Shown here piece after piece: positions 36,544-54,078 of a stretch of 64,000 nt of DNA. Location of the stretch: NCBI GenBank assembly GCA_020850355.1, contig JADZEX010000018.1, positions 62,001 to 126,000 of the forward strand. Direction: 5' to 3'. This DNA comes from Fimbriimonadaceae bacterium. GTDB lineage: Bacteria; Armatimonadota; UBA10988. The translations under genes were made by a program, and so were the position numbers. Under the pieces are notes generated by a model that did not search any database, had not been told where the DNA came from, and saw only the letters and a program-made list of their open reading frames with translations. How positions within the stretch are numbered: position 1 is the first letter of the stretch; each line of letters begins with the position of its first letter.

Positions 36544-37197
36544 TTACCGCGGGATCACCACGCCATCGGCCAGCCAGCGCTGGTAGACCACGACCATCAG
36601 CGCCGTCAGACCGGCCGACAGCAAGCTGGCGATGATTCCCTGCGCCCAGTCGTGCCGTCGCCGCTGCACCCGCGCCCACATCACCAGCGGCAGCGCCAGG
36701 CAGGTCCACAACCAGATCCGGCCGACCACCATCCCCGCCAGCACGGCGCAGGCGGCCAACGTGCTGGGGTGCATCGAGATCTTCCAGCGGCGGCTGATCA
36801 GCGCGAAGGGCAGCCCGTTGATCGCCATCCCCAGCGCGCCGAGTTGCAGCTCCATCGGTGCCCCGGCCACCGCCAGGGCGAACGCCGTGAAGACCGCGCC
36901 GACGATGCCGACGAAGAACGGGCCCTGCCGTTGCTGCAGGCTGGCGACATGCACGTCGCCAATCTCGCCCCGCCGGATGCCCAGCAGGATGTACCCCAGC
37001 GGCAGCCCCACCAGCCCGACCGCCGCCAAGGCCCCCCACTGCGCCGCCTGCTGCCAGGTGAGGGTCGTCCCCGTGAGCAACACGCCAATGAAGATCGGCA
37101 GCACGACGAAGGGGCTGGAAACGGCCGAGATCAGCAACGCCAGCCGGTCAAGCCAGCGTGCGGTGGGTGGCGGCTCCGGACCGTCGGCGGCAGTCAC
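36544..37197 (-). CDS. Polytopic membrane protein, PAP2-like
   Basis: About 217 aa; start uncertain. The open frame extends through the tRNA-Ala gene, so the first plausible start downstream is a GTG at 37197, without a good ribosome site. Six hydrophobic segments are visible. The motif RRWKISMHPSTLAACA resembles the KxSxH-type signature of phosphatidic-acid-phosphatase-like (PAP2) integral membrane proteins. However, the usual second and third motifs (PSGH, SRxxxxxH) are not present, so catalytic activity is doubtful. It ends 6 bases from the convergent glycosyltransferase. It may be transcribed from the tRNA-Ala promoter. Confidence 0.55.
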   Translation of the reverse strand: MTAADGPEPPPTARWLDRLALLISAVSSPFVVLPIFIGVLLTGTTLTWQQAAQWGALAAVGLVGLPLGYILLGIRRGEIGDVHVASLQQRQGPFFVGIVGAVFTAFALAVAGAPMELQLGALGMAINGLPFALISRRWKISMHPSTLAACAVLAGMVVGRIWLWTCLALPLVMWARVQRRRHDWAQGIIASLLSAGLTALMVVVYQRWLADGVVIPR

Positions 37198-37220
37198 CGC
37201 CGGGTCGGAGTTCCGGGGAG

Positions 37221-37293
<73 letters not shown>

Positions 37294-37307
37294 AGGAACA
37301 AGCTGGG

Positions 37308-37336
37308 AGTCTAGCAACCGCAGCGCTTTGTGTCAA
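37308..37336 (-). promoter_or_regulatory. tRNA-Ala promoter
   Basis: Minus strand: -35 TTGACA (37336-37331) and -10 TAGACT (37313-37308), spacing exactly 17. The tRNA 5' end is 14 bases after the -10. Confidence 0.8.
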
Positions 37337-39569: not shown

Positions 39570-40220
39570 CTAGCCCGGCGCTGGCACCGTCGCCGGTGCT
39601 GGCGTCGGCAGCGCCGGGGCGGGGTGGGTGTAGCCAAAGCCGAGCGGCCCGCGGGCCTCGGCGACTTGGGCCAACAGCGCTGCGAACGCCTCGGGCGTGC
39701 CGGGGTTCTCGCGGCGCAGGGTGGCCAGCGCGGTCGCCCCAGCGGCCGCCGGGACACCGCCGGCCGGGAGCTGCGGCACGGCCCGCTCGAGCGCGGCCCG
39801 CGCGACGTCGACGTCCTCGGCGAGTCGTGCAAACTGCTTCGCCGCCAGCTCACCCCGCGCCTGCAGCAGCGCCCGGCGGGCGGTCTCGAAGTCGCGCTGC
39901 AGCGGGTCGCTGACGCTCTCGAGCGGCGGCAACGTGGCCAGGTCCTCGTCGGTGGCGGCCGGCGCCGCGACCGGGGCGGGCGGGGCGACCGCTGGCGCGC
40001 TGGCGGCCGCCGGCGCAGTGGCCGCCGGCGCCGCGGCCGGGGCGCTGGCCGTGGCCGCGCTGTCGGTCGGAGCGGCGGCCGGAGCCGCCACCGGCGGGGC
40101 ACTGGCGACCGGCGGTGGCGTCGGGGCGTCCTCCACCTCGGGCAGTTGCCCACATCCCGCCAGCGCCCACATGCCGGCGATCGCCAGCAGGCCAGTCCAC
40201 CGCGTTGCCTGTGTCACCAT
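39570..40220 (-). CDS. Ala/Pro-rich lipoprotein at the end of the smc operon
   Basis: About 216 aa from the ATG at 40220 (GAGGG 6 bases upstream); an ATG at 40232 overlaps the smc stop (TGATG) and is an alternative. Signal plus lipobox: GLLAIAGMWALAGC. Residues about 30-90 are an Ala/Pro/Val low-complexity spacer, like those that span periplasm or cell wall. After it comes a helical segment LQRDFETARRALLQARGELAAKQFARLAEDVDVARAALERAVPQLP and a Pro-rich end. I do not recognise a family. The tight linkage to smc suggests the two are cotranscribed, but no functional link is known. Confidence 0.6.
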   Translation of the reverse strand: MVTQATRWTGLLAIAGMWALAGCGQLPEVEDAPTPPPVASAPPVAAPAAAPTDSAATASAPAAAPAATAPAAASAPAVAPPAPVAAPAATDEDLATLPPLESVSDPLQRDFETARRALLQARGELAAKQFARLAEDVDVARAALERAVPQLPAGGVPAAAGATALATLRRENPGTPEAFAALLAQVAEARGPLGFGYTHPAPALPTPAPATVPAPG

Positions 40221-40231
40221 CGTCGCCCTCA

Positions 40232-43200
40232 TCAGTCTGCCGCGCGCACCGTGCCGTCCGGCCGATCCTCGTCCTCGGCGGGCGGGCGATAGCTGAACGC
40301 CCGCGACACCCCCGGCTCCGGCATCGTGATGCCGTACAGCAGGTCCGCCGCCCGTGTCGTCTCAGGATTGTGGGTGATCACGATGAACTGCGACTCCCGC
40401 GAGAACTCCCGGAGCAGCTCGCGGTACTTCCGCAGATTCGCCTCATCCAGCGGGGCGTCGAGCTCATCGAGCAGACAGAACGGCGACGGCTTGACCTTGA
40501 ACATCGCCAGCAGCAAAGTCACCGTCGTCATCGCCCGCTCGCCACCCGACAGCAGCAGAATGCTCTGCAACCGCTTGCCCGGCAGCCGGACCATCACCTC
40601 CAGCCCACTCTCCAGGATCGCCCGCGGGTCACACCAGCTCAGCCGCGCCTCGCCCGACGGTCCGAAGATGCGCTGGAACAGCGCTCCGAACTCGCGGTTG
40701 ACCGCTTCGTAGGCCGTCGCCAGCCGCCCCACGGTGAGTTCGTCGATCTCTTCGATCACCCGCAGCAGATCGCCGCGGGCGGTCTCCAGATCGGTGCGTT
40801 GCTGCTCGTAGAACTCGAGCTGCCCGCCGAGCCGCTCGCACTCTTCGACCGCTCCCAGGTTGACATCGCCGAGGGCCGTCATTTCGGCCCGGAGCATCGC
40901 CAGCTCTTCAGCCGCCTCCTGGCGGTTGGGGATCTCGATCGCGCGCTGCTCGGCCGCCTCGGGCGTCAGCCCGCCGAACTCCTCGCTGAGAGTCTGACGC
41001 AGTTGCTCTCGTTCGGCATCAACCGCGGCCTGCCGCAGTTCGACCCGGTGCAGCCCCTCGCGCGCTTCGACCACCGCCTCACGCGCCGCGCGGGCACGTT
41101 GCACCGCCGCTGCGACCAGACCGTCGGCGTCCTCGCGCATCGTGCGGCGGGCCGCCACTGCGGCCACCGCGGCGCCGTGCGAGGCGCGCCAGGACTCCAG
41201 CGCCTCGCGCTGCGTCTGCACCTCGTCGCCGGCGCGCTGCAGCTCGCGTTCCAGGGCGCCCGCCGCGGCGGTCAGCCGTTGCTGCTCGGCCAGGCTGGCG
41301 GCCTGCGCCCGGCGCTCCGCAGCGGCCGCCGCGCGGACCGCCTGCAGCCGGCCCGTCACCTCCGCCACCTGCACCCGGGCCCCGGCCACCTCGGCCTGCT
41401 CGGCCTCGCTCTGCCGCCGCGCCGCGGCGGCGATCTGCTCGGCCGCCGCCAGGCGCGTCGCCACGGCGTCGCGCTCCGCCGTGGCAGCGGTCTGCGCGGC
41501 CTCGGCCCGGCGGATTCGGGCGCCCAGCTCCTCCGCCTCGCGAGTCGTCTCGCCGACCGCCGCCGCCAGCCGCGCCGGTTCGCCACTGGCCTGCGCCAGC
41601 GCGGCCCGGGCGTCCAGGCGCCGTCGTTCGGCCGCCGCCATCTGCTGCCGCTGCTGTTCGAGCTCGCGGCGCGCCGCCTCAAGCTGCTCGCGCGCCCCGC
41701 GCTGCTGCCGGTCGAGCGCGTGCAGGTCGCCGCGGAGCGCGGCCAGCTCGGCGTCCAGGCGGTCGGCCTCGCGGTCGCGGGCGGCGACCTCGCTGCGCTG
41801 TTCCAGCAGATTCGGCCCCCCGCGCTCGCGGCTGCCACCGGTGATTGCACCGCTGGTGCGGATCACGTCGCCATCGAGTGAGACGATGCTGACCCGCTCG
41901 AACCCGGCCCGCCGCACCGCGATGCCCGCCTCGATGGTCTCGACGACCACCAGATTGGCCACCAGCAGCCGCCGTGCCAGGTCGAACTCGGGGGCGGTCT
42001 GCACCAGGTCGAGGCCCAGACCGACGACGCCCGGCAGCGCCCGCAGGCGGTCGCCCTGGCGCGGGCCCTCGGCGTATTCCAGCAGGTCCAGCGGCAGGAA
42101 GGTCGCGCGGCCGGAGCGATCCTGCTTCAGGAACTCCACCGCGGCCCGCGCGTCTTCGGCCGTTTCGCAGACCAGGTCCTGCAGCCGTGCGCCGAGCAAC
42201 GCGTCGACCGCGACCTCGCAGCCGTCGGCCACCCGCAGGAGGTCGGCCACCACCTGGTAGTCACCCCGCAGCCGGCCGCGGTCGCGAGCCTGCAGCACGG
42301 CGCGCACACCGCGGTAGAGTCCTTCGTACGAATCGATCGCCGCGCGCAGCAGTTGCAGGCGGGTGGTGGCCTCGGTCAGACGCCCCTGCCGCTCAGCGAT
42401 CTGCGCCTGCAGCGCGGTGCGCTGCCGGTCCGACTCGCGCAACGCCTCAACCTGCTCCTGCTCGCCGCCGCGGCCGGCGGCCAGGCTCGCCTGCACGGTC
42501 TCGAGGGCCGCCTCGGCGGTCGCCGCGGCGCTGCTCGCCGTCGCCAGGTGCGCGGCCGCGGCTGACTGTCGGCTGGCCAGCTCGGTGCGCCGCGTGACCG
42601 CCCGCTGCAGGGCCGCGCGGGCGGCGCTGACCTCGCCCTCCAGCGCGCTGACCTGGCGGGTCAGCTCGTGGTGCGCGGCGCGCTCCTGCGCGGCCGCCTG
42701 GGCCTCACCCTGTTCGGCGGCCTGCTGCGCTTCGGAGCGCTGCTGCACCTCGGCCAGCGCCGCCGCGGCGCCGTCCAACTCCGCCGCCAGCGCGTCCTCT
42801 TCGGCGGCGCGGTCGGCGGCACCGCCGGCCAGCCGGGCCAGTGTCGCGGCCTGCCGCGCCGCGCCGGCGCGGGTCTCGTCGAGCCGCTGCGCCAGGTGGG
42901 CGGCCTGCTGCTCGGCCAGTTGCAGCCGTCCGACCTGCTGCTCGGCCTGTCGCGCCGTCTCGCCCAGCTCCTCTTGCGCCGCTCGCAGCTCCTGCTCCAG
43001 GCGCTGCTGGTCCAGCCGGGCGGCACCCTCGCTGGCCTCGGCCGCGGCCAGGGTCGCCTCGGCGGCCTGCAGGGCAGTCTGCTGCTGCTGCTGCTCATCC
43101 CGCCCGCGGGCGGCGCGGCGGGCGGTCAACTGGTAATCCTTGACCGCCAGCCCCAGCCGCAGCTCGAGGGCGCGGTGCCGCAAAGCCAGGAAGCGTTCGG

Positions 43201-43834
43201 CGACCAGCCGCTGGGCCTGCAGCGGTTCGAGCTGCAGCGCCAGCCCCTGCATCAGGTCACCGAGGCGGGTCAGGTTGGTGTTGACCTCGCCCAGCCGCCC
43301 GAGCGTCTCGTCCCGCCGGGCGCGGTAGCGCTCGATCCCGGCGACCTCCTCCAACAGCCGTCGGCGGTCGACCGGATCGAGGCTCAGCAGCGCGTCGATC
43401 TCGCGCTGCGAAATCACCGTGAAGCTGTGCCGGCCGACGCCGGTGTCGAGGAACAGGTCGACAATGTCGCGGCGGCGGCAGCGGCGGCCGTTGAGCAGGT
43501 ACTCCTGCTCGCCGTTGCGGTAGGCGCGGCGGCAGACACTGACCTCGGTCAGCGCGATGGGCAGCGTGCCGGCTGAGTTGTCGACCGTCAGGGTGACCTC
43601 GGCGAAGCCCGTCGGTCGGCGCTGTTCGGAGCCGGCGAAGATCACATCGGCGGCTTCGGAGGCGCGGAGGGCCGAGAGCCGCCGTTCGGCAAGCACCCAC
43701 AGCAGGGCGTCGGCGCAGTTGGACTTGCCGGAGCCGTTCGGCCCGATGATGGCGGTCACCCCGGGCCCGAAATCGAGCACCGTCGCCTCGGCGAAGGTCT
43801 TGAAGCCGACCAACTCGAGACGCTTCAGGCGCAT
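40232..43834 (-). CDS. smc: Chromosome segregation protein SMC
   Basis: About 1200 aa, the full family length. N-terminal ATPase head: VGFKTFAEATVLDFGPGVTAIIGPNGSGKSN with Walker A GPNGSGKS (residues 31-38). A long coiled coil follows (about 170-500), then the hinge (about 510-665: EGLYRGVRAVLQARD-like start, GDVIRTSGAITGG end). A second coiled coil covers about 670-1015, and the C-terminal head has the signature LLSGGERAMTTVTLL and Walker B FCLLDELDAPLDEANLRKY. SMC forms condensin with ScpA/ScpB and is loaded at parS by ParB. parS sites occur in this window at 7704-7764. Four other genes lie in the same operon. The coiled coils are very Ala/Arg/Glu-rich. Confidence 0.97.
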   Translation of the reverse strand: MRLKRLELVGFKTFAEATVLDFGPGVTAIIGPNGSGKSNCADALLWVLAERRLSALRASEAADVIFAGSEQRRPTGFAEVTLTVDNSAGTLPIALTEVSVCRRAYRNGEQEYLLNGRRCRRRDIVDLFLDTGVGRHSFTVISQREIDALLSLDPVDRRRLLEEVAGIERYRARRDETLGRLGEVNTNLTRLGDLMQGLALQLEPLQAQRLVAERFLALRHRALELRLGLAVKDYQLTARRAARGRDEQQQQQTALQAAEATLAAAEASEGAARLDQQRLEQELRAAQEELGETARQAEQQVGRLQLAEQQAAHLAQRLDETRAGAARQAATLARLAGGAADRAAEEDALAAELDGAAAALAEVQQRSEAQQAAEQGEAQAAAQERAAHHELTRQVSALEGEVSAARAALQRAVTRRTELASRQSAAAAHLATASSAAATAEAALETVQASLAAGRGGEQEQVEALRESDRQRTALQAQIAERQGRLTEATTRLQLLRAAIDSYEGLYRGVRAVLQARDRGRLRGDYQVVADLLRVADGCEVAVDALLGARLQDLVCETAEDARAAVEFLKQDRSGRATFLPLDLLEYAEGPRQGDRLRALPGVVGLGLDLVQTAPEFDLARRLLVANLVVVETIEAGIAVRRAGFERVSIVSLDGDVIRTSGAITGGSRERGGPNLLEQRSEVAARDREADRLDAELAALRGDLHALDRQQRGAREQLEAARRELEQQRQQMAAAERRRLDARAALAQASGEPARLAAAVGETTREAEELGARIRRAEAAQTAATAERDAVATRLAAAEQIAAAARRQSEAEQAEVAGARVQVAEVTGRLQAVRAAAAAERRAQAASLAEQQRLTAAAGALERELQRAGDEVQTQREALESWRASHGAAVAAVAARRTMREDADGLVAAAVQRARAAREAVVEAREGLHRVELRQAAVDAEREQLRQTLSEEFGGLTPEAAEQRAIEIPNRQEAAEELAMLRAEMTALGDVNLGAVEECERLGGQLEFYEQQRTDLETARGDLLRVIEEIDELTVGRLATAYEAVNREFGALFQRIFGPSGEARLSWCDPRAILESGLEVMVRLPGKRLQSILLLSGGERAMTTVTLLLAMFKVKPSPFCLLDELDAPLDEANLRKYRELLREFSRESQFIVITHNPETTRAADLLYGITMPEPGVSRAFSYRPPAEDEDRPDGTVRAAD

Positions 43835-43841
43835 CGCGACC

Positions 43842-44213
43842 TCAGAGCTGGCGGCCCAGGATGATGTCGAGGCGGTTCAGCAGTTGGTTGCGGTCGAGCG
43901 GCTTGCTGAGGAAGTCGGTGGCCCCGCGGCGACGGGCCTCCTCGCGGTCCCAGGGCTGGTCGAGGCTGCTCAACATCAGCACCGGCGTGCTCTGCGTCCG
44001 GCGGAAGCGGCGCAGCTCGTCAAGCACCTGGAAGCCGTCTTTCTTGGGCATCATGACGTCGAGGATGATCAGGTCGGGGCGATGCTGCAGCGCCATCTGC
44101 ACGCCCTCGTCCCCGTCTTTGGCCAACAGCACGTCGTGCTTCAGGCTGCCGAGGAAGGCCTCGACGGTCTTCAGGGTGTAGATGTCGTCGTCCACCACCA
44201 GGATCCGCGCCAT
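43842..44213 (-). CDS. Stand-alone response regulator receiver
   Basis: About 123 aa, a single CheY-like domain with all key residues: acidic pair Asp8/Asp9 in ILVVDDD, phospho-acceptor Asp52 in LIILDVMMPKKDGF, Ser82 in LMLSSLD, and Lys104 in FLSKPLD. It has no output domain, so it must act by binding a partner. It lies 7 bases from smc and 30 bases from a HEAT-repeat gene on the same transcript. That context is unusual and suggests it may signal to one of these neighbours. No kinase gene is in the operon. Confidence 0.9.
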   Translation of the reverse strand: MARILVVDDDIYTLKTVEAFLGSLKHDVLLAKDGDEGVQMALQHRPDLIILDVMMPKKDGFQVLDELRRFRRTQSTPVLMLSSLDQPWDREEARRRGATDFLSKPLDRNQLLNRLDIILGRQL

Positions 44214-44243
44214 AAGCGGCTCACCTCGTCGCGTCGGGGCCCC

Positions 44244-45560
44244 TTACCGCAGCAGGTCGAGGGCGACTCGCGCGGCTTCACGGACCTCCTGGTCGGGGTC
44301 GCGCAGCGCGACCTCGATGGCCGGCCGCGCGCGCTGGTCACGCAGCTTGCCGAGCGCTTCGATGACGCGGGTCTTGACCGCCTGCCGTTCGTCGGCCGCG
44401 GCCAGGACCAGCGGGATCACGGCCTTCGCTTCGCCGATCACGCCCAGCGCCTCGGCACAGAAGCTGCGCACCGACCATTCGGAGTCGCGCAGTCCTTGCA
44501 CCAGCGGGTCGACCGCCTCGGGGTTGCCCAGGTCCAGCAGCGCCTGCGCCGCCTGCAGCCGGACCATCGCGTTGGCGTCGCTGAGGCGTTCGGAGAGCGC
44601 CTTGACCGCGTCCGGGCCGCCCAGCAACCGCAGCGCGTTGATCGCGACGCTGCGGATGTCGCGGTGGCTTTCCTGCAACAACGGCAGCAGCGCTCGGACC
44701 GCCGCGCCGCGGTCGACATGCCCGACCTTGCCCAGCGCCTCCGCGGCGTAGTGCTTGACCCGCGCGTCGTTGTCGGTCAGCGACTCCACCAGCGGCCCGA
44801 AGGAGCGCTCGTCGTTCAGCCGCCCCAGGGCGTCGGCGGCGTGCAGCCGGCCGTGGGGGTTGTCGTGGGTCAGCAGCTTGATCAGCTCGAGCGTCGATTC
44901 CTTGCCGATCTTGACCAGCGCCTGCACCGCGGTGTCGCGCAGGTCGCCCGAGGACGAGGTCAGCGCCGTGACGAGCTTCGGGATCGCGGCGGCGTCGGCG
45001 ATCTCGCCGAGCGCCTCGGCGGCGTAGCGGCAGATCTCGACGTTCTCGTCGTCGAGCATGTCGATCAGCCGTGGCGTCGCGCCGCTGGCGCGAATCTTGC
45101 CGAGCGCGCGGGCGGCCTCCTTGCGTACTTCGGCGTTCTCGTCACCGAGCGCCGCCACCAACGCGTCGAGGGCCCCCGCGTGCGCAATCAGGCCGAGCGT
45201 CTCGGCCGCCCGGCGGCGCATCTTGGGGTCCTTGTCGGCGAGCTTCTCGACCAGCGTCTCGACCGCGATGGGGCCCATCGCCGCGAGCGCCTCGACACCC
45301 GTCCGCTGAACGTTGACGCTGGCGTCGGCGAGGGTTTCGACCAGCGGCGCCAGGGCCTCCGGCGCGCCCAACGCCCCAAGCGCGCGGGCGGCGCCCATGC
45401 GGACCTGGTAGCTGCCGTCCTTGAGCGCCTCCATCAGCGGCGGCACCGCCCGTGGGCCGACGGCGACGAGGTCCAGATGGGCCTTGTCCAGCTCAGCCTC
45501 GCCGCGGGCGCGGAGCTTTTCGATCAGGTCGAGAACGTTGCTTTCTTCGGCGGGAGGCAT
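44244..45560 (-). CDS. HEAT-repeat (PBS-lyase-type) scaffold protein
   Basis: About 438 aa made almost entirely of about 13 HEAT-like repeats of roughly 31 residues. Examples are VPPLMEALKDGSYQVRMGAA, LAPLVETLADASVNVQRTGV, ALVAALGDENAEVRKEAA and PRLIDMLDDENVEICRYAA; each has the L..L.D....VR..A pattern. Such solenoids bind other proteins. In bacteria they may be phycobilin-lyase-like, but there is no catalytic feature here. It begins 6 bases after the helix-hairpin-helix membrane protein and is followed by the response regulator and smc. HEAT proteins are known partners of SMC-kleisin complexes in eukaryotes (HAWKs); a bacterial analogy is tempting but unproven. Confidence 0.85.
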   Translation of the reverse strand: MPPAEESNVLDLIEKLRARGEAELDKAHLDLVAVGPRAVPPLMEALKDGSYQVRMGAARALGALGAPEALAPLVETLADASVNVQRTGVEALAAMGPIAVETLVEKLADKDPKMRRRAAETLGLIAHAGALDALVAALGDENAEVRKEAARALGKIRASGATPRLIDMLDDENVEICRYAAEALGEIADAAAIPKLVTALTSSSGDLRDTAVQALVKIGKESTLELIKLLTHDNPHGRLHAADALGRLNDERSFGPLVESLTDNDARVKHYAAEALGKVGHVDRGAAVRALLPLLQESHRDIRSVAINALRLLGGPDAVKALSERLSDANAMVRLQAAQALLDLGNPEAVDPLVQGLRDSEWSVRSFCAEALGVIGEAKAVIPLVLAAADERQAVKTRVIEALGKLRDQRARPAIEVALRDPDQEVREAARVALDLLR

Positions 45561-45566
45561 TGCGCC

Positions 45567-46307
45567 TTAGCCTTTCTCTGGTTCGCCCTGCAGCGCGGCG
45601 ACGGCCAGCCGGAGGGCCTGAATCTGCGCTTCGATCTGCGCCTGGGTTTGCGGCTGCTCCAGCAGCAGCGTGGCCTGCACGGTGCCTGCCGCGGTGAGGG
45701 CGGCCTGCACCGCCGTCGCCCCGGCCGGCCCGTGGCCGCCATGTTCGGCCGGCCCGCCGCCCGCCCCGGCCGCGCCTTCCAGCGCGCGCAGCGTGCGCGT
45801 GACGTGGTTGAGATGCTCCAGCGCCAGTCCGTAGTTGCGGTCGCGGGCCTTCGCGAAGACCCAGTCGGCCTGCTCGGCGGCTTCCACCACCAGGTTGCCC
45901 TGGACCGTGGTGATCGCCTGATTGGCGCGGTCAGCCGCGGCCTGTGCGGCGTTCAGGTCGGCCTGCAGCTTGCGGGTATTGCCGTTGCCGCCCGCGAACA
46001 TCACAATCGCCACCAAGATGGCCAGCAGCAGCACAACCATCAGGAGCACCGCGGGGCCGCCGTTACCGGGTGCCGCCGGCTCCAGATAGGCGTCCGGCGC
46101 CGCCAGCGGCGGGGGCGGCGGATCGAGGACGTCGAGCTCGGCGAGGGCTTCTTGGATGCGCTGCCGCGACTTCGGGCCGATCCCGCCGAAGGCCTCGATC
46201 TCCGCCGCCGAGAGGCCGCGGAACTGCTCCAACGGGAGCTCGTCAAAGCCATACGTCTGGGCCTTCAGCTCTGCGCTGCGGGACGGAGTCTGCGGGTCTG
46301 TGGACAC
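45567..46307 (-). CDS. Membrane-anchored protein with helix-hairpin-helix-like N-terminus
   Basis: About 246 aa; GTG start with AGGAGG 6 bases upstream. Residues about 25-57 (LEQFRGLSAAEIEAFGGIGPKSRQRIQEAL) look like a helix-hairpin-helix DNA- or protein-binding unit with the GIGP turn. A Pro-rich linker (PPPPP, 62-67) leads to one transmembrane helix (about 85-105). The rest is probably outside, with a coiled-coil segment (KLQADLNAAQAAADRANQAITTVQ) and an Ala/Gln-rich helix at the end. It is the first gene of the smc operon. A cytosolic HhH plus membrane anchor would suit tethering DNA or a DNA complex to the membrane, but this is inference. Confidence 0.6.
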   Translation of the reverse strand: MSTDPQTPSRSAELKAQTYGFDELPLEQFRGLSAAEIEAFGGIGPKSRQRIQEALAELDVLDPPPPPLAAPDAYLEPAAPGNGGPAVLLMVVLLLAILVAIVMFAGGNGNTRKLQADLNAAQAAADRANQAITTVQGNLVVEAAEQADWVFAKARDRNYGLALEHLNHVTRTLRALEGAAGAGGGPAEHGGHGPAGATAVQAALTAAGTVQATLLLEQPQTQAQIEAQIQALRLAVAALQGEPEKG

Positions 46308-46356
46308 CCTCCACCTCCTCGGTCGAACGGCGCGTCAAGATCGCGGGATACCGCCT

Positions 46357-46385
46357 AGTATACCACGCCGACGGGCCGCTGCCAA
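46357..46385 (-). promoter_or_regulatory. Promoter of the smc operon
   Basis: Minus strand: -35 TTGGCA (46385-46380) and -10 TATACT (46362-46357), spacing exactly 17. It leads into the five-gene unit from 46307 down to 39570. No strong internal terminator is seen within that unit. Confidence 0.75.
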
Positions 46386-46446: not shown

Positions 46447-48633
46447 ATGGCGCAGCATGTTGCGGCGGTGCGGGACGTTGCCCCGGTGACCGACACCGGC
46501 GGTGCGCCCTGGTTCTGCGACCCCGACTCCGACGCCTGGCACGAGCCGTTCGACGACGCCTGGCAGGCCCACCCGGAGCTGCCCTACGTGCGCCGCCTGG
46601 CGGTCGCCCAGGCGGCCGAGATGGCGGCCGCGCGGCCGCGCCTCGTGGCGGGCGACCGGCTGGTCGGTGACTGGGGCGTCAACCCCGTCGTCTCGGGCCG
46701 CGCGACGCCCTTCGGCAACGGCATCCGGCTGGACCGCGAGCAGGCCGCCCGACGGCGCGCCGCGCAGCCCACGCGGGCCGCCGCGGTCGACGCCCTGCTG
46801 GCCTCCTGGGACGCCTGGCTGGCCGCGCACCGCGACCACTTCGCTCCGACCTGCCACGCCGCCCTGGCCTACCACAAGGTGCTCGGCGCGGGCTTCGACG
46901 GGTTGCGCGCCGAAGTCACCGCCGCCGCCGCACGGCCCGGCCAGGACGCCGCCACGGCCGACTGGTACGCCGCGCTGCTGACCGTGCTGGACGGCATGAC
47001 GGCCTTCGTGCTGGCGCACGCCACCGCCGCCGACGCCGCCGGCCTGCCCGCGGTGGCGGCGCGCTGCCGGCGGATTGCCGGCGGTCCGCCGGGCAGCTTC
47101 GCCGATGCCGTGCAGTTGGCCTACCTGCTGTTCCTGCTGGGCGGCCACGACTCCCCCGGCCCGCTGGACCGTTACCTCTACCCCGCCCTGGCCGCCGACC
47201 TCGCGGCCGGCCGCACGACGCTCGATGAGGCCCAGCAGTGGGTCGATGCGCTGTGGCTGCAGTTTGCCGGCAAGGTGGCCTACGGCGCCACGCTGGGCGG
47301 GCAACTACCGGACGGCAGCGACGCCGTCAACGAGCTCTCCTGGCTCTGCCTGAGCGCCATCGACCGCCTGCGGCTGCTCTCGCCACGGACCACGCTGCGG
47401 TGGCATCCCGGCATCGACCCGGCCTTCTGGCGGCGCGCTGTCGAGGTGATCGCCGCCGGGGCGGCCTATCCGGCGGTGGTCAACGACGGGCCGGTGATCC
47501 AGGCCGCCGTGGCCCGCGGGATGCGGCTGGAGCACGCCCGCGACTACACCTTCGTCGGCTGCGGGCAGGTCTATCCCTATGGCCGCGGCCACGGCAGCTA
47601 CGAAGACCTCGTCATGAACACGGCCTGGCCCCTGGAGCTGGCCCTCCACAACGGCCGCGACCCGCGTAGCGGGCAACAGGTCGGGCCACTCACCGGCGAA
47701 GTCGGCGACCTGGCCGACTACGCGGCGTTTGAGGCCGCCGTGCGTCACCAGATGGAGGCCCATCTGGCGGAGCAGATTGCCGCCGTCAACCAGCGCCGGG
47801 CGGCGGCCGTCGGACACGCCTTCGACCTGGTCCGTTCGCTGTTGACCGACTCCTGTGTCGCGCGCGGCCTCGACTGGCACGCTGGCGGCGCCGACTACAG
47901 CGAAGGGATGGTCGACGCGGTGGGCCTGGCCACCCTGACCGACTCCCTGCTGGCGATCCGGGTCGGCGTCTACGAGCAGCGGCTCGTCACCCTGCCCGCG
48001 CTGGTGGCGCACCTCGACGCCGACTGGGCCGACGCCGAACCGTTGCGGCAGCGCTTCCGGGCGTTGCCGAAGTACGGTAATGGCGACCCCGCGGCCGACG
48101 CCTTCACCGCCGCCCAGGCGGACTGGCTGCACGAGGCGATCGCCGCCCACCGCACGGTCTTCGACGGGCCCTGGGGGATGGACATCATCGGCTGGTCGGG
48201 CGCCCTGCTGCTGGGCGAACAGACCGGCGCCACGCCCGACGGCCGCCGGCGCGGCGAGTCGCTGGCCGACTGCGCCGGACCGGCTCAGGGCCGCAACCGC
48301 GCCGGGCTGTTGTCGACCCTCCAGGCGGTCGCCGGCCTGCCCCACGACCGGGCCCACGGACCGCTGGCGCTGAGCCTGCGGGTGACCCGCCAGAGCGTCG
48401 CCGACCCGGCCGGGATCAGCGCCCTGCAGCAGACCATCGAGCGCTACTTCGTGGCTGGCGGGCAGCACGTGCAGGTCAGTGTCGCGTCGACCGCCGACCT
48501 GCGCGCCGCGCAGCAACGACCGGACGATTACCGCTGGCTGGTGGTCCGCGTCGGCGGCTTCAACGCCTACTTCACCGAGCTCGACCGGCGCTGGCAGGAC
48601 GACCTGATCGCGCGCGCCGAGTTGAGTGTCTGA
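46447..48633 (+). CDS. Glycyl-radical (pyruvate formate-lyase) family enzyme of unknown substrate
   Basis: About 728 aa; ATG at 46447 with GGAGG 5 bases upstream. Family features: VQLAYLLFLLGGHDSPGPLDRYLYPAL, Cys372 in TFVGCGQVYPYG, GATPDGRRRGESLADCAGP and the C-terminal glycyl-radical loop VVRVGGFNAYF with Gly704. In most dehydratases and lyases of this family the active site is Cys-x-Glu; here it is Cys-Gly-Gln, so the general base is missing. PFL itself has Cys-Cys. No radical-SAM activating enzyme is nearby. Either it is activated elsewhere or it has lost radical chemistry. The sulfatase gene begins 11 bases after its stop, so the two are an operon and may act on the same sulfated compound. 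Confidence 0.75.
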   Translation: MAQHVAAVRDVAPVTDTGGAPWFCDPDSDAWHEPFDDAWQAHPELPYVRRLAVAQAAEMAAARPRLVAGDRLVGDWGVNPVVSGRATPFGNGIRLDREQAARRRAAQPTRAAAVDALLASWDAWLAAHRDHFAPTCHAALAYHKVLGAGFDGLRAEVTAAAARPGQDAATADWYAALLTVLDGMTAFVLAHATAADAAGLPAVAARCRRIAGGPPGSFADAVQLAYLLFLLGGHDSPGPLDRYLYPALAADLAAGRTTLDEAQQWVDALWLQFAGKVAYGATLGGQLPDGSDAVNELSWLCLSAIDRLRLLSPRTTLRWHPGIDPAFWRRAVEVIAAGAAYPAVVNDGPVIQAAVARGMRLEHARDYTFVGCGQVYPYGRGHGSYEDLVMNTAWPLELALHNGRDPRSGQQVGPLTGEVGDLADYAAFEAAVRHQMEAHLAEQIAAVNQRRAAAVGHAFDLVRSLLTDSCVARGLDWHAGGADYSEGMVDAVGLATLTDSLLAIRVGVYEQRLVTLPALVAHLDADWADAEPLRQRFRALPKYGNGDPAADAFTAAQADWLHEAIAAHRTVFDGPWGMDIIGWSGALLLGEQTGATPDGRRRGESLADCAGPAQGRNRAGLLSTLQAVAGLPHDRAHGPLALSLRVTRQSVADPAGISALQQTIERYFVAGGQHVQVSVASTADLRAAQQRPDDYRWLVVRVGGFNAYFTELDRRWQDDLIARAELSV

Positions 48634-51505: not shown

Positions 51506-51577
51506 TGGGCGTGGGTGGTTTCGAACCACCGACCTCTTGAATGTGAGTCAAGCGCTCTCCCACTGAGCTACACGCCC
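51506..51577 (-). tRNA. tRNA-Val (anticodon CAC)
   Basis: Minus strand: acceptor GGGCGTG with CACGCCC and discriminator A; D arm GCTCAGTGGGAGAGC; anticodon stem CTTGA/TCAAG with loop CTCACAT (anticodon CAC); T arm GGTGGTTCGAAACCACC. No encoded CCA. Reads GUG codons. Confidence 0.95.
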
Positions 51578-51662: not shown

Positions 51663-52361
<699 letters not shown>

Positions 52362-52480
52362 AGGGTCCTCCTGACACCCAACTCCGCTGCGTCTTGGCAG
52401 TCTGTCGCATGAGTATGACGCATCTGTCAAGGCCGATTCTTTGCGAAACCACTGCGGCCGGCGAGGTCATTACGCAACAG

Positions 52481-52508
52481 GCCTCCCGCCTGGCGGCAGG
52501 CGGGAGGC
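52481..52508. terminator. Hairpin downstream of prepilin copy 2
   Basis: GCCTCCCGCCTG (52481-52492) pairs perfectly with CAGGCGGGAGGC (52497-52508), loop of 4. It lies 46 bases past the stop of the gene ending at 52554. A second small dyad GCCGG/CCGGC lies beside it. Confidence 0.55.
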
Positions 52509-52553
52509 GCAGGTGCGGCCGGCGACCGGCCGGTGAGTTGGGGGCCCGCGGCG

Positions 52554-53258
52554 TTAGGGTGCGCCGAGGAACCAGGCGCGGTTGACCGGGGCGTCCGGGG
52601 CGAGCATCGAGTTGGTCGAGGCCCACTTGACGTGGCCGTCGACGAAGGTGATGTTCATGCCGCCGGCGTGGCGTGGGTAGCCGGTCTCACCAAGCTGGCC
52701 GCGCAGAATCAGCCCGTTGTTGTCGGTGGTGGTCTGCGCCCAGCCGGCGGTCGGACCGGGCAGCCAGTGGTTGTACCAGGCGTTGCTGCTCTCCAGCAGA
52801 AGCTGGAACTCGGCCGGGCTGTTGATCTGGCTGTCGTTGATCGGGTAGCCGTAGAGGCCGCTGTTGTTGGTCCCCTCGGGCCAGCACCAGCCGTGGGCCA
52901 TGTTCATCTGGTAGCGGGTGTTCTGAATGTTGGTGGCGGTGTCGATGTTGGCCGAGGGGCAGGCGTAGATCTGGTTGCTCTTGATGTAAGGCACGATCAC
53001 CTGGCCCCAGATCAGCCGCAGGCCGCTGCCGCTGTGGTCGTTGTAGACCGCCGGCCACTTCTCGTCGTAGTCCTGCTTGTACTGCTGGAAGGCCAGCCCA
53101 AGCTGCTTCTCGTTCGAGGCGCAGCTCGACTGCCGGGCCTTCTCGCGGGCCTTCGCGAAGACCGGGAAGAGGATCGCAGCGAGGATCGCGATGATCGCGA
53201 TCACCACCAACAGCTCAATGAGCGTGAAGCCCGTCGGGCGACGGAGCATTCGATTCAT
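52554..53258 (-). CDS. Prepilin-like H-X9-DG protein, copy 2
   Basis: About 234 aa from the ATG at 53258. Pilin signal [17 protein letters not shown] followed by the same anchor helix. The body is closely similar to copy 3 ([40 protein letters not shown]) and ends [19 protein letters not shown]. The ribosome site GGAGG (53270-53266) is part of a 14-bp hairpin. The copies probably arose by tandem duplication and then split in the middle (about 140-190), where the sequence differs most. They may be subunits of one surface fibre or processing-associated proteins. Confidence 0.88.
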
Positions 53259-53265
53259 GTGTTTG

Positions 53266-53330
53266 CCTCCGGCCCTCGCCGCACGGGCGAGGGCCGGAGT
53301 GTCTGTAACACCCTGCGACCCGAATGTCAA
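53266..53330 (-). promoter_or_regulatory. Promoter and SD-masking hairpin of prepilin copy 2
   Basis: Minus strand: -35 TTGACA (53330-53325), -10 TACAGA (53307-53302), spacing 17. Downstream CTCCGGCCCTCGCC (53299-53286) pairs perfectly over 14 bp with GGCGAGGGCCGGAG (53280-53267), which includes four of the five bases of the ribosome site GGAGG. A transcript from this promoter would start near 53295 and lack the part of the arm that pairs with the ribosome site. Confidence 0.5.
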
Positions 53331-53379
53331 GCCGCTGCGGCGCTGCATCCGGATCATCAGTTGCGCGGGACAGCCAGAC

Positions 53380-54078
<699 letters not shown>

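Follow-up and report, generated by a model that had tools for sequence, protein, structure and literature searches.

The gene run around smc

The window analysed here is a stretch of 64,000 nucleotides from contig JADZEX010000018.1 of a Fimbriimonadaceae bacterium (Armatimonadota; assembly GCA_020850355.1), and the subject of this work is a run of five genes on its minus strand, read from position 46385 down to 39570. In this run smc is preceded by genes for a membrane protein with a putative helix-hairpin-helix (HhH) motif and a single transmembrane (TM) helix (HhH/TM protein), for a HEAT-repeat protein and for a stand-alone receiver, and is followed by a gene for a predicted lipoprotein (Table 1). 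The run begins with a promoter-like site, and its genes are closely spaced: 6 bases separate HhH/TM from HEAT, 30 HEAT from the receiver and 7 the receiver from smc, which overlaps the lipoprotein gene by 1 base. A preliminary description of the window had listed these genes with their order, gaps, overlap and promoter-like site, and all of this was borne out exactly when the open reading frames (ORFs) were re-read and the promoter consensus was scanned; over 12.5 kb the scan found two such sites, compared with 0.3 +/- 0.6 in shuffled sequences.

Table 1. Promoter-like site and genes of the smc run in the window
Feature	Position	Strand	Remarks
Sigma-70-like promoter, TTGGCA-17-TATACT, TG before the -10 element	46357..46385	minus	consensus match only, 10/12; lies ~50 bases ahead of the first start codon
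HhH/TM protein, 246 amino acids	45567..46307	minus	GTG start, GAGGAGG upstream; homologues in 5/5 class genomes
HEAT protein, 438 amino acids, HEAT solenoid over full length	44244..45560	minus	Pfam HEAT_2 5e-74; model confidence (pLDDT) 93.5
Stand-alone receiver, 123 amino acids, D8/D9, D52, S82, K104	43842..44213	minus	Pfam Response_reg 3.4e-26
smc, 1200 amino acids, housekeeping chromosome segregation ATPase	40232..43834	minus	SMC_N 1.5e-62, SMC_hinge 2e-25, TIGR02168
Predicted lipoprotein, 220 amino acids, lipobox ALAGC, low-complexity linker, helical C-terminal part	39570..40232	minus	ORF reading

At its N-terminus the HhH/TM protein has a short helical domain that includes a GIGP hairpin (residues ~10-61), followed by one TM helix (~85-104) and a C-terminal four-helix domain (110-240). 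Its predicted structure (mean predicted local distance difference test score, pLDDT, 76) shows the TM helix and the four-helix domain and, ahead of them, a small unit at the N-terminus and a linker without order, with the GIGP hairpin segment modelled as a small helical unit at a pLDDT of ~88. Searches of Pfam gave nothing significant for this protein or for the lipoprotein of the window, and a fold search with the HhH/TM model found no structure with E under 0.001.

Conservation within the class

The class to which the window belongs is represented in our collection by five genomes from two families, namely that of the window (G000), G001 (locus L061), G002 (L062), G003 (L063) and G004 (L064 and L034), of which G001 and G003 form one genus. 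All assemblies are drafts; the cluster genes of L061 were taken from its ORF list, and the two contigs of G004 end inside the HEAT gene and were joined by an exact overlap of 67 bases. A neighbourhood search with the HEAT and HhH/TM proteins, as the preliminary description had proposed, showed the order HhH/TM-HEAT-smc to be kept in all five genomes, with the genes tightly packed and with SMC identities that fall to about 45-55% across the two families. The HEAT proteins of the class form a single clade in the HEAT tree (support 100/99). The hairpin of the window's HhH/TM protein is short and has no Pfam match of its own; the homologue in G004, from the sister family, matches HHH_5 at 3.1e-11.

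The remaining members of the run are less constant. Three of the five genomes, those of the window, G002 and G004, have a receiver gene between HEAT and smc (58% and 50% identity to the receiver of the window); it is absent from the cluster in G001 and G003, where HEAT and smc are ~12 and 27 bases apart. Apart from the window, G002 was found to have the lipoprotein gene after smc (with a lipobox; 47% identity across 34 amino acids, E 1.2e-5). We rejected it as a core member of the system, since smc is followed by another gene in G001 and by an RND-type gene in G003; a lipoprotein encoded further downstream of smc in G003 looks FKBP-like.

The Smc-ScpAB complex

The smc gene product scores 902.6 bits against the equivalog of bacterial SMC proteins TIGR02168 (SMC_prok_B; cut-off 567.35), and its hinge (523-640) and ABC motifs are intact (Walker A at 31, signature at 1095, Walker B at 1123). 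It is the sole strong SMC match in the genome and thus present in a single copy. Genes for ScpA and ScpB were found in 5/5 class genomes; in the genome of the window ScpA is in two pieces on two contigs (C17 and C43) and ScpB lies at C43:97805-98275. Judged by its sequences, the SMC complex is the usual bacterial Smc-ScpAB. With ScpA and ScpB encoded elsewhere in the genome, the HEAT protein therefore replaces neither the kleisin nor the kite, and a role as stand-in for either of them was ruled out. We also rejected an SMC-like system of anti-phage defence such as Wadjet or Lamassu, since the PADLOC matches were merely generic ATPase, receiver or HEAT matches and no partner genes of such systems were found.

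A membrane protein-HEAT pair outside the class

A HEAT orthologue was detected in 59 of 291 Armatimonadota genomes (HEAT-family profile, E below 1e-90). Orthologues from outside the class have 32-43% identity over their length and align collinearly through nearly all repeats, and orthology is therefore favoured over mere shared repeats. Of 34 loci examined in other classes, not one had smc next to the HEAT orthologue, and since the two lie apart there, a phylum-wide set of smc partners was discarded. The HEAT tree splits by context into clades of the smpB type, the dnaE/TM type and the class. At 10 loci from five families smpB lies directly downstream of HEAT (L065, L066, L067, L068, L070, L072, L076, L078, L079, L150), in many of them with small gaps or overlaps; this closeness points to a tie with trans-translation or to plain co-expression. 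Another 12 loci, from six families, have a lipoprotein gene and then dnaE downstream of HEAT. Eleven of them represent a cluster with a TM gene upstream of HEAT (L071, L073, L152, L153, L158, L159, L160, L163, L164, L165, L166), of which L159 begins at HEAT, at a contig end; at the twelfth, L074, the contig ends within the lipoprotein gene, and dnaE was placed there by analogy with its relative L163. This TM-HEAT-lipoprotein-dnaE arrangement is an uncharacterised envelope module beside the gene of the replicative polymerase. The lipoprotein of the window gave no match to the lipoprotein encoded before dnaE beyond low-complexity similarity, and an ancestral lipoprotein-dnaE context of HEAT in the class was rejected, as in the class neither HEAT nor that lipoprotein is encoded upstream of dnaE. 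Most of the remaining HEAT loci outside the class have the TM gene alone in common.

A bitopic TM protein of 150-380 amino acids is encoded on the same strand directly upstream of HEAT at 23/36 loci, compared with 8/345 other genes of these loci (Fisher p 3e-21, for loci that cover 12/18 families and include near relatives that are not independent). In most families outside the class the tail before the TM helix is acidic, and the helical domain after it carries a recurrent G-(D/N)-x-x-x-A-x-x-x-L. Profiles of the parts following the TM helix, with the helix itself excluded, matched between class and non-class proteins at P 3e-4 (score 30.2; ten column shuffles 6-10, reversed profile 11); the match of full-length profiles including the TM helix (P 4e-8) is inflated by its composition. 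We have fair, though not complete, confidence that the TM proteins paired with HEAT are homologous within and outside the class. With a membrane protein recurring directly upstream of HEAT, the core is therefore a phylum-wide TM-HEAT pair, and among the genomes examined the smc linkage and the HhH-like tail are class-specific additions. HHH_5 was found in none of five tested TM proteins upstream of HEAT from other families; among the proteins tested only those of the class have the HhH tail, and HhH and smc linkage therefore go together.

The gene-neighbourhood check across Armatimonadota by which the preliminary description wished its proposal to be judged gave a divided answer: the order is conserved in the class, but at the loci inspected elsewhere HEAT adjoins smpB or dnaE and never smc. 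The idea that all five genes form one set of smc partners is not supported, with the receiver lost in one genus, the lipoprotein shared with one relative only and HEAT away from smc outside the class.

Fold and relatives of the HEAT protein

The model of the HEAT protein is a regular solenoid (predicted template modelling score, pTM, 0.83), whose best fold matches are designed alphaReps, the scaffold subunit A of PP2A (TMq up to 0.69), karyopherin beta2 and CAND1. By sequence it matches alphaReps, MTH187, CpcE/F and PP2A A. Neither among the 50 best folds nor among the sequence matches listed was there a Hawk, the HEAT-repeat type of subunit of cohesin and condensin. The match to Pfam Cnd1 (2.5e-17) is over the cut-off but is one of 30 overlapping HEAT-type families, and NCBIfam scores are below all lyase cut-offs (CpcE 123 bits vs 330). 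When a sequence collection was scanned with a four-row HEAT alignment, just three already known relatives were matched, all metagenome-assembled genomes of Armatimonadetes.

The HEAT proteins of L061 (9576-11105) and L063 (3943-5541) carry a long, D/E-rich acidic C-terminal tail of roughly 75-100 residues, which the HEAT proteins of the window and G002 do not have. The two genomes with this tail, from one genus, are those without a receiver between HEAT and smc; this extension might take the receiver's place or have no relation to it.

A possible role beside Smc-ScpAB

We tentatively favour an envelope-anchored HEAT scaffold that may have been enlisted as an accessory tether for Smc-ScpAB. The core is an old pair, a bitopic membrane protein together with a presumably cytosolic scaffold of HEAT repeats, and it is kept across much of Armatimonadota. 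In the class of the window the pair stands before smc, and the membrane protein has an HhH-type hairpin in its presumably cytosolic tail. This tail would attach the HEAT solenoid to the inner membrane, and the HhH hairpin, the HEAT surface or both might contact DNA or Smc-ScpAB; the HEAT scaffold would then serve as an accessory tether to the envelope, or as a positioning factor, alongside the complex without being a subunit of it. In genomes that have the receiver, it might act as a switch on HEAT docking, and as one genus has none in the cluster, its control would therefore be optional at most; the lipoprotein would be peripheral to the system. In this scheme we infer the membrane topology, the contact between TM and HEAT proteins, the binding of DNA by the HhH, any contact with SMC and the phospho-control.

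What speaks most strongly for a functional link is that the HhH tail and the smc linkage coincide in one class. Several points weigh against it, most of all the persistence of the TM-HEAT pair beside smpB and dnaE elsewhere: outside the class HEAT adjoins these genes and not smc, and its basic job is therefore not SMC-specific. Furthermore, the HhH of the window's family matches that of G004 weakly (P 0.004), four of the five supporting genomes come from one family, and HhH hairpins may bind proteins rather than DNA.

Nearly as likely as the accessory tether is co-transcription without contact, in which the TM-HEAT pair would have an envelope job unrelated to SMC and would, in this class, have landed before a steadily expressed housekeeping gene that suits it. 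The three HEAT clades with their three housekeeping neighbours (smpB, dnaE and smc) are consistent with this, as are the different neighbours of smc in other families of Armatimonadota, ftsY in some, and a complete ScpAB, with which SMC function requires no extra subunit. It accounts less readily for a linkage to smc that has outlasted the divergence of SMC over two families and is found in every genome of the class, or for class genes that overlap or nearly do so and an HhH tail limited to that same class. That the order arose from an assembly error or a one-off rearrangement is refuted already by its conservation: the named relatives are metagenome-assembled drafts, but five assemblies agree, and the contig break inside HEAT in G004 closes by an exact overlap.

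A closer involvement seems unlikely to us, namely that in the class HEAT works together with Smc-ScpAB: held at the membrane by HhH/TM, it would dock on the complex or on the DNA bound by the complex, with the receiver as the switch. This would be a HEAT-assisted, envelope-tethered bacterial condensin that arose independently of the eukaryotic Hawks. Slightly less probable still, and not supported, is a Hawk-like subunit that binds Smc and kleisin directly and regulates them, which would make a membrane-tied, receiver-switched bacterial condensin with HEAT repeats. The single operon in all class genomes could be read in its favour, as could the match to Cnd1, generic as it is; against it stand the presence of both the kite ScpB and the kleisin ScpA, closest matches to alphaReps, CpcE/F lyases, the PP2A scaffold, karyopherins and CAND1 instead of Hawks, and HEAT orthologues without smc linkage in many other families. 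The HEAT protein thus fails two features of Hawks, the replacement of Kites and the closeness to Hawks themselves, and is therefore not classed as one.

Other features of the window

The run is followed downstream by an unrelated gene for a GH42 beta-galactosidase. Upstream and divergent from it lies a gene for a pyruvate-formate-lyase-like glycyl radical enzyme (46447-48633; PFL-like 2.5e-95, Gly_radical 2.9e-18) and then a sulfatase-like gene; no activating enzyme was seen adjacent. Three tandem genes on the minus strand (51663-54078) encode similar prepilin-type proteins and adjoin a tRNA-Val gene (51506-51577). A tRNA-Ala (GGC) gene lies at 37220-37293 on the minus strand; the long form of the ORF at 36544-37317 runs through it (AQLGERLNGIQEVRGSIPLGST), and the true start of this ORF is therefore later. 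An Rfam scan of the window found two tRNAs and nothing else.

Comparison with known systems

In the open-access literature we found no description of a HEAT protein with bacterial smc, of the operon of the window or of the TM-HEAT pair, in agreement with the preliminary description, to which this set of smc neighbours was unfamiliar. The SMC protein itself is a full member of the bacterial family (SMC_prok_B, TIGR02168) with ScpA and ScpB in the same genome; it differs from other bacterial Smc-ScpAB in that its gene is co-transcribed with those of HhH/TM, HEAT and receiver. The receiver fits the single-domain response regulators of the CheY/DivK type, with a phospho-acceptor D52, K104, a length of 123 amino acids and no output domain. 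In repeat type and solenoid fold the HEAT protein resembles HEAT proteins of the PBS-lyase type (CpcE/F, NblB, MTH187) and PP2A scaffold A, whose genomic contexts are unrelated. RocS of Streptococcus pneumoniae is reported to be membrane-attached, to have a DNA-binding part, to act in chromosome segregation and to be controlled by phosphorylation (PMC11500499). The likeness is one of working mode, with no sequence relation claimed, and RocS differs in binding the membrane via an amphipathic helix and in being phosphorylated by a Ser/Thr kinase.

Further counterparts are the TM-HEAT-lipoprotein-dnaE and HEAT-smpB loci of other Armatimonadota, in which HEAT is orthologous and collinear and, in the dnaE type, a bitopic TM protein is encoded upstream; unlike in the class, no HhH was found in the tail, smc and an intervening receiver are absent and the downstream genes are others. 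The TM-HEAT pair, smc aside, is a conserved uncharacterised envelope module across a poorly studied phylum. With the Hawks of cohesin and condensin the window shares a HEAT-repeat protein that is genetically linked to SMC. Hawk-Smc-kleisins appear to be uniquely eukaryotic (Wells et al., 2017; PMC5228436), and the prevailing view is that only eukaryotes added HEAT proteins to their SMC complexes (PMC5228436). Hawks replace Kites, whereas the genomes of the class keep them; with HEAT in the smc operon next to a retained ScpAB, the class offers a natural setting in which to ask whether an SMC machine can gain a HEAT scaffold without replacement of the Kite.

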